A DNA stretch of 64,000 nucleotides, taken from NCBI GenBank assembly GCA_002794785.1, contig NBBA01000003.1, positions 310,001 to 374,000 of the forward strand, in the 5' to 3' direction. How positions within the stretch are numbered: the first letter of the stretch is position 1; the number at the start of each line of letters is the position of its first letter. The notes beneath the pieces were generated by a model. The model saw only the letters and a program-made list of their open reading frames with translations. It was not told the origin of the DNA and did no database searches. Positions 15,898 through 20,118 of the stretch are shown piece after piece. Origin of the DNA: Coniferiporia sulphurascens (taxonomy: Eukaryota > Basidiomycota > Agaricomycetes > Hymenochaetales > Hymenochaetaceae). The position numbers and the translations under genes were made by a program.

Positions 15898-17362
15898 TCA
15901 AGCAACAACAGCGATAGGGCGTGGGCTCGACAATGTCTCCATACCAAGTGGTAACAGCTCCGGCTCATCGTCGATACGACGCAACATATCTGCACGGCAT
16001 TCAGCAACAAAATCGGTGAACATCTAAACAAGAGTCGACAAGGTAAGTTAAGGTAGAGCGCCGGGAAAGAAGTGGTGCACTCGCCTCAATCGTGTCAAGA
16101 GGACCACCGGCAGATTCAGGGTGAAATTGAACACCCCAGACCTTCTTCCCCGATTCAGCAGTTGACTTAATGCCTTCAACTGAAGAGTCATTGCAGTTGA
16201 TGAAGAAAGGCTCCCATCCAGCAGGGAATGGGTCGGAAAGCTTCAGTGCATACTGATGGTTTTGGCTTTGAAATAAATGTTCAATGAGATAAATTCCGTA
16301 GACAGAAGGATCTCAAACGTCGTACCTTGTTACATAGACTCTGCCAGCCTTTATTGATCCGGACGATGCAAGCGCAAGGACGGGTTGGTTGTGACCACGA
16401 TTACCGAATGTCATCCGATACGCGTCCAAACCAGCCGCCATCCCAATTATCTGGTGTCCCATGCAAATACCGAACACTGGACGATCCCATTCAGTCAACG
16501 TGCGACGTAAAATCAGTGCAGCCTCCATGCACTTTTGGGGGTCACCAGGGCCATTGGTGAGGAAAAGCCCGTCGAACTCGTCGCGCACTGTGTTGAAGTC
16601 AAAATTCCATGGGAAGACAGTGACAGCAGCATTTCGGCGGACGAGTGAGCGTAGGATATTGGCCTTGGCACCAAAATCGAGGACAGCTATCTTGACATCA
16701 CCGGTCGGGTTAAGTACATATGGAACCTTGGTTGAGACCTGGTCCACAAGATTTTCCAATGAAGGGTCCCAGTATTCGCTCTCGGCTGGGGTAGGAGTCG
16801 TGGTATCTGGACCAACAGCCAATCGGCCGAGGGTAGTGCCTTGGTTCCGAAGAATTGTGGTAATTGCACGTGTGTCAACACCGGTGATACCAGGGACATT
16901 ATGACGGAGGCACCACGATGACAGCGACTCGACGGCGGAATGGTGCGAGTACTTCTCGGCGAGATCGGCCACGACAACGGCAGAGCATTGGATATTTTTT
17001 GATTCAAGAAGCACGCCGACGTCACGCGTGTCCGTTGGTGCCCTGTTCAGAGGCACACCGTAATTGCCTATGAGAGGTGTAGTGAAAACAAGAATTTGAC
17101 CACGATATGATGGGTCAGTCATAGACTCGGTGTCTTCAAAACGAGGTTAAGCACATGGTGGTCAAAAAAGATAAGAAGACATACAAGATGTGATGGATGT
17201 CGAAAAGACTGTTTCCCCCCAGATACTGCGAGGAGCGCCGAAGGCTTTTCCCGCAAATGATTCACCAGACTTGAGGTGGAGTACAGCCGGGGTCCTAAGG
17301 GCACTGCCAGTTGCAAACCCGCGAAAAAGGGAAGGGACTCGAGGGATAGAGCGGGCAAACAT
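15898..17362 (-). CDS. CPA1: Carbamoyl-phosphate synthase, arginine-specific small (glutaminase) subunit
   Basis: Hydrolyses glutamine to feed ammonia to the large subunit for carbamoyl phosphate, first committed step to citrulline and arginine. Exon 1 is 17185-17362. It starts MFARSIPRVPSLFRGFATGSA, an arginine-rich presequence suggesting mitochondrial import, then LHLKSGESFAGKAFGA. Exon 2 ends at 17133 upstream and begins TES-MTDPSYRGQILVFT after S-Y. The class I glutamine amidotransferase nucleophile is FGICMGHQI. The His-Glu pair lies in VQFHPESAGGPLDTIE. Other conserved blocks are GITGVDTRAITTILR, AVLDFGAKANI and FLTNGPGDPQ. The last intron, 16024-16084, uses a GC donor (GAG|GCGAGT); a GT reading hits a stop. 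The protein ends SSPRPIAVVA. It diverges from an XPG-like nuclease and carries a probable attenuator uORF in its leader. Confidence 0.95.
16024..16084 (-). other. GC-AG intron in CPA1
   Basis: Exon ends DTIE (GAG), followed by GCGAGT, with acceptor TTGTTTAG before ATGTTCACC. The only nearby GT donor (four bases in) shifts frame into an early stop, so the GC donor is the reading that keeps the conserved C-terminal end open. Confidence 0.7.
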
Positions 17363-17374
17363 GTTCGGGATTTT

Positions 17375-17508
17375 TCAATGGTTGAGGAGAGAGAAAACGA
17401 GGTCGCTAAGATAACTGTGTGTTATAAAGGTAAAAGGTAAGATCGTTTGACAAGAAATAATAGGAAGGAGAGACGCAACTCGTCCCTAGTGTTCTGAGTA
17501 AAAATCAT
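17375..17508 (-). promoter_or_regulatory. Spliced upstream ORF in the CPA1 leader, candidate arginine attenuator peptide
   Basis: ATG at 17508; first exon 17480-17508 (MIFTQNTRD plus two bases), intron 17415-17479 (GTTGCG...CACACAG), second exon 17375-17414. The join gives 22 residues ending DDYLSDLVFSLLNH and a TGA, 12 nt before the CPA1 ATG at 17362. Fungal CPA1/arg-2 messages carry a 24-25 residue attenuator peptide whose conserved block, as I recall it, is DYLSD plus eight residues ending LN-x. Here the pentapeptide and the spacing to the stop match, but the usual Trp is Phe. In that family arginine makes the nascent peptide stall ribosomes and lowers CPA1 synthesis. Unspliced, the DYLSD frame has a stop and no ATG, so the intron is required. 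Splicing is inferred. Confidence 0.7.
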
Positions 17509-17566
17509 GTACTCGAGCTGCGCGCCCCAGTATCGTGCCGTACGGAATTAAGCTATTTGTGAGAGG

Positions 17567-17573
17567 TGAGTCA
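17567..17573. promoter_or_regulatory. Gcn4/CPC1-type TGAGTCA site
   Basis: Perfect TGAGTCA, 58 bp upstream of the uORF ATG, in the CPA1/XPG divergent promoter. It matches the bZIP general amino-acid-control consensus TGA(C/G)TCA, which is expected upstream of arginine biosynthesis genes. A single 7-mer can arise by chance; the position makes function plausible. Confidence 0.55.
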
Positions 17574-17698
17574 AAACGAGCGAGGAAAAAAAGTATTCGT
17601 GAGGTCACGTGTATATCATATAATCTCATGCTGACAGATGCTTCCGCTCAACCTCGCGTTCATCCCGAAAGCCCGAAAGGAATCACTTGTACGGGTGA

Positions 17699-20118
17699 AT
17701 GGGAGTGCAGGGTCTTACACCATTCCTTCAGAAGATCTGGTGGGTTGTTGCAGCCCATTTTTAATCAATAATATACACATGTTGCTTATATTGCAGCCCT
17801 GAAGTCATAAAAACACTTCCCGATCGTCTTCGAGGTTTCAAGGGAAAAACGATCGTTTTGTTCGTCATATTCACGTTTTTGTATATCCTCTTGCTCACGC
17901 TTTCGTTTTATAGTGATGGCACACTCATCACACAGAGATTACATTGGGCGCAGACGCCTCATCAATATAGACACGTCCTCGGATGGTACAGGCTTATGAC
18001 AGAGCTAAAGGACAACGGTGTGAACGCCATCTGTGTATTTGACGGCAAGTCGCGCTCGATTGCAAAAGCACAGGAAGTATGTCATTGATTATCTTCGCGT
18101 CATTTAAGATTCCTCACTAACCCGATAAACTAGAACGAGAGGCGAATGAACGCGCGGCGAGTCATATCCGTCCGCAGTACTTTAGAGGCCGAGCGTCTCA
18201 ACCGACTACAGAAGATGTCTAATATCCTCAAGACGTGCGAGGCTCTTCTGCCTCCGGAACGACCTAAAGCCAAATCGAAGCCGCGTAAGGCTCCATCTCG
18301 GTCTAAATCGAAATGTAAACAGCCACCACAACCGACAGAACCGGCAATAATTCAAGAGGAACAGCGCGCCACGGATAAATTGTGCCATGAGGACCAGTCT
18401 ACCAGTAGTCTGGAATCTGGAAAAGATGGCCGCGACGAAAGCCAGCCCGTTAGACCGAAGCTCAAACAAGATGGCCACGACGAAAACCTACCCTTTACTA
18501 CAGAGTCCAGGCAAGATAGTCACCCTGGTGAAGAGCTCATTGGTTTAAAGTCCGAGCAAATCAGTAACGACAATTTGAAGGACCAGCCCGCTAGCCTCGA
18601 GCAAGGTAACAATATCGGGGACCAGCTCGTTACCCCGGCGCTCGATGGAGGTGATCTCGATGAGGACCAGCTTATTAGTTTACAGTTCGAGCATGCCGAT
18701 CGCGACGAGGACCGACCTACCGGTTCAGAACTCGAGCAAAAAAGTCATGACGTGGCACAGTCCATCAGCTCGGAATCGGAGCAAGGTAGCCGCAGCGAGC
18801 ACCAAATTGTCAGTCCTGAGTCAAGGCGCGATGATAACCAGCTCGTTAGTTCGGAGCGTGATTATCAAGGCGAGGACCAGTGCATCAGATCAGAACCCGG
18901 GCGAGGCAAGGATGTGGTCCTGACGTTGACCAAGCTCTCGGCTGCCGAGTGTCCTCATGAACTTGAAGAACAGGTCGACGAGTCACCCCAAATTAGTCCA
19001 TGTGATGATCTTGGGGGAGGTTTCATGCGCGGGCTATCTACCTTGATTCCTGAAGCACTATCTAACGAGCTTGCTAGTCTACACGAGGAGTACCAGTCGT
19101 CCGTCAGATCAGCATTTTCCGACCCGTATATACAGACGGAATCTCCTGACAGCAGGGATCTTGCGTCTGAACTTCCGGGGTTGGCGTCGGTACCCGATTC
19201 ACTGGTCCCGGCCGAGGCCTCTCCAGCCGAGGTCTCCGAATCAAAGCTCCAACTTATCCTCACACAAGAAGAGGGTCAACTATGGTCGGAGGTTGAAGCG
19301 ATAGTGACACAGCCGGATAGTATAAGCTCATCATCAATACTGACTGATCTCATCGACCGCAGCCAAGCTCTGTCCGAAAATTATGAGAAGCGAAGCAAGC
19401 CACCCACGCGAGAAACATACGAAGAGAGCAAGACCTTGTTAGATGCAATGGGCGTTCCATGCGTGGAGTGCGATGGTCCATATGAGGCAGAGGCGCTTGC
19501 GTCTTCCCTCGTCCACCACGGAATTGCCGACTACGTCGCGAGCGAAGACACTGTAAGCTTGTCTCTTTATTATGCATCTTCGTCATTTTGAGAGAATGTT
19601 CAATATAGGATGTGCTTGTCTATGAAGCCCCGCTCCTTCGCAACATCACTGCGCGGCACGGCGCACTCGTCAGCGTCTCTGGTACTGCCGTCCGTGATGC
19701 GCTGGGCCTAGAGCGTGCGTCTTTCGTCGACTTCGCGCTTCTCCTTGGTACGGATTTCTCCCCGCGCCTGCGTAACGTCGGCCCTAAGCGTGCACTGCGT
19801 TTCATAACTACACATGGTTCTATTGAACGTGTGCTTGAGAACGAATCGCGGTACGCGCCGAACGACGCAGAGACGTACCTCGCTCAAGTGGAACGTGCGC
19901 GACAAGTGTTCTCCGTACTCCCACCCGTACCCCTGATGGAGGAACTTAAAATACGTGAGGGTGATCAGAAGAGGATAACTAATCTACTGAGCCGCTTTGG
20001 ACTGGCGCGCGCCGCGGTCGACGAGGACTGGGACCCTCAAGCTCCACTGGCCGGAAATTATTTTAAAGACAGTCCCCTCGAGAAGGGAAACATAATTATT
20101 GACCCAAGCTTCGGATAA
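17699..20118 (+). CDS. XPG/FEN1-like nuclease (PIN-like fold) with long repeat insert
   Basis: Five exons: 17699-17739, 17797-17859, 17914-18076, 18134-19552 and 19609-20118, totalling 2196 nt or 731 residues. The N region starts MGVQGLTPFLQKICPEVIK, with the metal-ligand context TIVFDGTLITQRLH and CVFDGKSRS. The I region has EESKTLLDAMGVPCVECDGPYEAEALASSL and ADYVASEDTDVLVYEAPLL, carrying the expected acidic residues. A helix-hairpin-helix-like segment follows (FALLLGTDFSPRLRNVGPKRALRFI). Between N and I regions lies a hydrophilic insert of about 350 residues that contains a 15-residue tandem repeat (about 18380-18908). Such nucleases cut flaps or branched DNA. The C-terminus lacks an obvious PCNA box. 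I cannot assign it to FEN1, EXO1 or Rad2; it resembles a separate fungal PIN-domain group. Confidence 0.87.
18380..18908 (+). repeat. Coding 45-bp (15-residue) degenerate tandem repeat
   Basis: Ten consecutive 15-residue units can be laid in register, from LCHEDQSTSSLESGK through DGRDESQPVRPKLKQ, DGHDENLPFTTESRQ, GDLDEDQLISLQFEH and ADRDEDRPTGSELEQ to GSRSEHQIVSPESRR, then less regular units to about 18908. The loose consensus is (G/D)-x-x-x-(E/D)-(D/E)-Q-L-x-S-x-x-x-E-Q. The array is acidic and probably disordered. Confidence 0.75.

Follow-up and report, generated by a model that had tools for sequence, protein, structure and literature searches.

The question raised by this locus is whether the mRNA for the arginine-specific carbamoyl-phosphate synthase small subunit (CPA1) of Coniferiporia sulphurascens carries an arginine attenuator peptide (AAP), the textbook eukaryotic arrest peptide, in an upstream open reading frame (uORF) that is assembled by splicing. 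The window, that is, the whole 64,000-nucleotide stretch of DNA that was analyzed, contains the gene on the minus strand (Table 1), and an earlier note had proposed for its leader a spliced AAP-type uORF in which the tryptophan of the known peptides is replaced with phenylalanine. The gene behind the leader is CPA1, as that note had assumed: the product contains the PF00988 and PF00117 domains and, among the best named relatives, is 88% identical to the protein of Phellinidium pouzarii and 83-90% identical to proteins of Sanghuangporus, Phellopilus and Pyrrhoderma. All four genera belong to Hymenochaetales.

Two features lie outside the leader proper. On the plus strand, at 18146-20118, two ORFs give weak matches to XPG_I and a 5'-3' exonuclease, below the Pfam cut-offs; they probably represent one divergently transcribed nuclease gene, which may share a promoter region with CPA1. 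Elsewhere in the genome (39.3 Mb in 31 contigs searched), another relative of the carbamoyl-phosphate synthase small subunit, with 44-46% identity, lies at G000:C6:1309819-1310679 (minus strand; loci L002 and L003) in a 701-residue open frame that we take, as a guess, to be the pyrimidine-pathway fusion protein. No second copy of the leader was detected elsewhere in the genome.

Table 1. Coordinates of the CPA1 leader and gene features, numbered from the first nucleotide of the window
Feature	Position	Strand	Description
uORF exon 1	17508-17480	minus	ATG to GAC GA, encoding M I F T Q N T R D plus 2 bases of an Asp codon
uORF intron (predicted)	17479-17415	minus	65 nt, phase 2, GTTGCG...ACACAG
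uORF exon 2	17414-17375	minus	(D)YLSDLVFSLLNH, then TGA at 17377-17375
Spacer between uORF stop and CPA1 ATG	17374-17363	minus	12 nt
CPA1, arginine-specific carbamoyl-phosphate synthase small subunit	15898..17362	minus	430 aa, N-terminal extension
CPA1 intron 1	17184-17134	minus	51 nt, placed by homology
CPA1 intron 2	16325-16266	minus	60 nt, placed by homology
CPA1 intron 3	16084-16024	minus	61 nt, placed by homology; of the GC-AG type (GCGAGT...TTTAG) according to the best alignment with a relative

When the predicted intron is removed, the two leader exons encode a 22-residue peptide, MIFTQNTRDDYLSDLVFSLLNH, in which the DYLSD core is followed by eight residues and the stop codon. This layout had been proposed in the earlier note (a 65-bp intron, two exons, 22 residues and a stop 12 nt before the main ATG), and its coordinates and counts agree with the minus-strand sequence. 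Among the 30 GT/GC donors with an ATG-started frame between position 18150 and the acceptor, only the donor at 17479 places Asp ahead of YLSD. The intron interrupts, after the second base, the codon of the Asp residue that aligns with Asp-12 of the Neurospora crassa AAP, so that the unspliced mRNA is unable to encode the DYLSD core. The unspliced leader is read as a different uORF of 28 residues, MIFTQNTRDELRLSFLLFLVKRSYLLPL, which lacks the core and stops inside the intron, bearing out the proposal that the core is present in the spliced reading only.

The upstream AUG (uAUG) has T at position -3, a weak context, and the CPA1 AUG has A, a stronger one, as judged from the sequence only. Because a weak uAUG context permits leaky scanning, this is the order of start codons expected under that mechanism. 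Folding of the unspliced leader (17560-17363) was no better than that of shuffled sequences (z 0.74), and nothing reached the Rfam gathering score within 17200-17900.

The resemblance to AAP leaders might be fortuitous and the leader non-functional, considering that only the core region is common to the ascomycete AAPs and that no Pfam match was obtained: searched with the spliced peptide, Pfam gave no family at E-values up to 10, leaving the peptide below the PF08252 cut-off. The N. crassa AAP, used as the positive control, scored 56 bits against that cut-off of 18.5. PDB sequences likewise gave nothing at E-values up to 10. However, none of 6,000 dinucleotide-shuffled 301-nt leaders yielded a comparable ATG-started uORF, unspliced or spliced, where comparable means DY[LI]SD followed by 6-14 residues and a stop, with GT-AG introns of 45-120 nt and a spliced core at most 15 nt from the junction. 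Given this result and the matches in two relatives described below, we consider a chance resemblance exceedingly improbable. A profile built from seven ascomycete AAPs gave 8.5 bits for the spliced peptide and -1.9 bits for the unspliced reading; the best of 300 shuffled peptides, 236 of which were reported by hmmsearch at all, scored 4.6 bits.

Across the genome, PF08252 gave only two weak matches, both below the cut-off, on another contig and within 230 nt of each other (G000:C7:1548092-1548319, plus strand; L005 and L006), which are likely due to chance. This search could not reveal the uORF because the spliced peptide itself fails the Pfam test and its core is split in the genome. The genome contained no match to a nucleotide pattern that specifies DYLSD and then CTC, but such a pattern is blind to split codons.

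Protein sequences of relatives support the proposal. We inspected the N-termini of 53 CPA1 proteins, comprising the best 50 among 120 listed entries, out of 6,969 matches in all, and three from a second search. One of these, the CPA1 model of Pyrrhoderma noxium (P0007), opens with MIFTQNTRDDYLSDL and then enters CPA1 at SGESF; its first 15 residues are those of the spliced uORF peptide, across the exon junction. No such start is present in the other 52. When residues 1-40 of P0007 were used as the query, 13 proteins were retrieved, with no second fused model among them, the other 12 covering just 63% of the query.

Taken at face value, the annotation of P0007 would mean that the coding sequence of an alternative CPA1 product truly begins in the two small exons and bypasses both the N-terminal extension and the uORF stop, and an in-frame join that would yield such a product, MIFTQNTRDDYLSDLSGESF, also exists here (17398-17270, minus strand, 129 nt, GTTTTC...CTCAAG). 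We regard this coding role as very unlikely: the donor of the join, GTTTTC, fits none of the three consensus positions considered below, the P0007-type start occurs in one of the 53 inspected relatives, and P0121, the body of which is by eye very near that of P0007, begins with MFARSIRSVP like the ordinary main ORF. In view of the start of P0121, we read the P0007 fusion as an annotation artefact that still documents the uORF; the gene model appears to have absorbed both exons of the uORF while leaving out its stop codon.

The second relative emerged from a search for short relatives, which returned eight proteins, namely seven ascomycete AAPs, all with PF08252, and P0131, a 48-residue environmental ORF on a 4038-bp contig. 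P0131 consists of MIFTQNTRDE, 21 further residues, and then SYLSDLVFSLLDPFKTF, which includes SYLSDLVFSLL. The segment MIFTQNTRDE is identical to the unspliced reading of the uORF, and YLSDLVFSLL is identical to the corresponding residues of exon 2. Despite a weak E-value (0.64), we accept the kinship on the grounds of these identical stretches on both flanks of an apparent intron: P0131 seems to read through an in-frame 66-nt intron at the position of the uORF intron, the removal of which would give MIFTQNTRDDYLSDLVFSLLDPFKTF. Judging from the E-Y-V and H-S residues, its splice sites could be GA/GTAYGT and YAG/Y (the slash marking the junction). This putative intron is in frame and stop-free, so that its retention would lengthen the peptide, whereas in the CPA1 leader analyzed here the unspliced frame terminates within the intron.

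The nine residues of exon 1, MIFTQNTRD, are identical in P0007 and P0131, and P0131 also has Phe at the position of Trp-19, a part that is missing from the P0007 model. Taken together, the two sequences indicate that the uORF peptide is conserved among relatives, over 15 residues in P0007 and, in P0131, on both exon sides, with the same putative intron position and the same Phe. They support the proposal that the leader holds an AAP-type uORF formed by splicing, in which Phe replaces Trp. In P0131, 12 residues separate the core from the stop, and the P0007 model lacks the uORF end. No fungal CPA1 leaders were found in viral_contigs, and the nine loci obtained from genome_contigs belong to records titled bacterial or archaeal. 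The single match of P0131 in viral_contigs (50%, residues 12-43) covers mostly the putative intron part and was taken as a chance match.

The predicted splicing of the uORF intron in C. sulphurascens is supported by the protein sequences of these two relatives. The intron is ordinary in its length, its acceptor and its branch-like site, CTTAC, the A of which lies 23 nt from the 3' splice site. The donor, GTTGCG, fits none of the three informative positions (R+3, G+5 and T+6), and at least one of these is fitted in all 22 unambiguous introns used for comparison, with G at +5 in 20 and a purine at +3 in 19 of the 22. The comparison set comprises the 3 CPA1 introns and 19 homology-placed introns between exon pairs of protein families, the latter obtained from 25 stretches, selected from among the neighboring matches separated by short gaps, after three were dropped (L040 and L061 with no option, L044 with options two or more residues off) and three tied ones were set aside (L048, L058 and L059, the last two each including an option that fits none of the positions). 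The weak donor fits either inefficient splicing or drift, and it makes efficient splicing in this species less certain; it is the sole sequence hint toward the two alternatives that follow.

One of these extends the preferred explanation. The weak donor and the position of the intron in the essential Asp codon could make the share of mRNA that carries the arrest peptide variable and possibly regulated, with the retained-intron mRNAs carrying the 28-residue uORF that lacks the core. Splicing may, as the earlier note suggested, switch attenuation on or off. The termination of the unspliced uORF in the intron is in line with this proposal, as is a donor that falls below all 22 comparison introns by the three-position count in an otherwise ordinary intron; however, the weakness is not conserved in P0131, where the donor deduced from the protein fits GTAYGT, and weak donors can also be used constitutively. 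We consider such gating unlikely. Under the other alternative, which appears distinctly unlikely, the ancestral uORF was functional and the donor has degenerated here, such that the intron is mostly retained and production of the DYLSD peptide has ceased. The complete lack of fit of GTTGCG at a site where P0131 seems to have GTAYGT would be explained by such decay, but a mistake in the assembly at this site would produce the same picture, and the still exact match of exon 1 and YLSDLVFSLL to the relatives suggests continued or very recent constraint.

The explanation that we prefer, and hold to be probable, is that the CPA1 mRNA bears an orthologous, divergent, one-intron AAP uORF that acts through leaky scanning and arginine-dependent stalling. 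The gene, the place of the uORF, the core and the spacing all point to an orthologous AAP variant, probably with AAP-like action. Following the removal of the 65-nt intron, some of the scanning ribosomes would initiate at the uAUG in its weak context and translate the 22-residue peptide, and the remaining ribosomes would bypass it and reach the stronger CPA1 AUG. At high arginine, the nascent peptide would hold the ribosome at the uORF stop, where, given the size of the ribosome footprint and the 12-nt spacing, it should cover the CPA1 AUG. With a ribosome held at this site, CPA1 translation would fall, possibly with nonsense-mediated decay of the mRNA as a further outcome. These steps parallel those described for N. 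crassa and yeast, where the AAP stalls ribosomes at the uORF stop at high arginine, leaky-scanning bypass permits CPA1 synthesis at low arginine, and stalling also feeds decay (PMC11550727, PMC3130931).

Variable splicing, if it occurs, would place arginine synthesis under a second layer of control. The full version of this idea, in which splicing gates arginine attenuation through a conserved intron in the essential Asp codon, the weak donor determines the ratio, and arginine is sensed by a peptide that has Phe where the supposedly essential Trp would stand, we judge to be unlikely. A lineage that naturally carries Phe for Trp-19, with the other core residues intact, offers a ready test of the requirements of the ribosome tunnel. 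Furthermore, AAP-like peptides are easily overlooked: Pfam misses the spliced form, and with the core split by an intron in the genome, a six-frame search is unable to see it whole.

In the open-licence literature, searches gave no match for an intron in a uORF and nothing that combined CPA1, uORF, splicing, arginine and Basidiomycota; two papers combined AAP, basidiomycete and intron; the DYLSD strings retrieved only an unrelated title, and Hymenochaetales together with uORF only a mitogenome title. The main survey of the AAP uORF in fungi is reportedly that of Hood (2007), which possibly also covers introns within such uORFs of basidiomycetes; a mutational study of the AAP is said to be that of Spevak (2010).

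Compared with known AAPs, the peptide has the expected place in a CPA1/arg-2 leader uORF (given the predicted splice), the Asp-Tyr-Leu-Ser-Asp core, a stop shortly beyond it and a weak uAUG context. The position of Trp-19 is occupied by Phe, and the PF08252 score falls below the cut-off; we therefore call the peptide an AAP variant and not a certified PF08252 member. The arg-2 AAP of N. crassa (24 aa, PF08252 Leader_CPA1), the sequence of which agrees with PDB 2xl1 and P0124, is likewise encoded by a uORF of the orthologous gene and shares T-x-x-D-Y-L-S-D and the eight residues from the core to the stop. The alignment of the two peptides displays both this common spacing and the Phe at the Trp position, as the earlier note had claimed. 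The peptide described here differs in its length of 22 aa, in having no Pfam match, in the intron that interrupts the codon for the first Asp of the core, and in substitutions that include Phe for Trp-19, Val for Leu-18, Ser for Arg-20 and Asp for Gln-11. The critical residues of the N. crassa AAP include Asp-12, Tyr-13 and Trp-19, as listed in PMC3130931. The CPA1 leader peptide of Saccharomyces cerevisiae (25 aa, DYISD) belongs to the same gene and has the same core, but retains Trp and is 25 aa long; 8 of the 22 residues are identical (Met-1, Gln, Thr, four core residues and the final His).

Among the closer relatives, P0007 differs in being annotated as a CPA1 fusion with the uORF end missing, and P0131 ends with LLDPFKTF, in contrast to LLNH in the uORF peptide. 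The AAP uORF of Cryptococcus CPA1, compared here by its published description, is the counterpart from basidiomycetes. In PMC7049704, this uORF is reported to have strong ribosome occupancy in two species, the CPA1 mRNA of C. deneoformans to be up 5-fold in a upf1 deletion, and, citing Hood et al., conserved AAP uORFs to have been verified as reporter repressors in N. crassa extract; the AAP is also treated in PMC4505036, PMC5487733 and PMC13183943.
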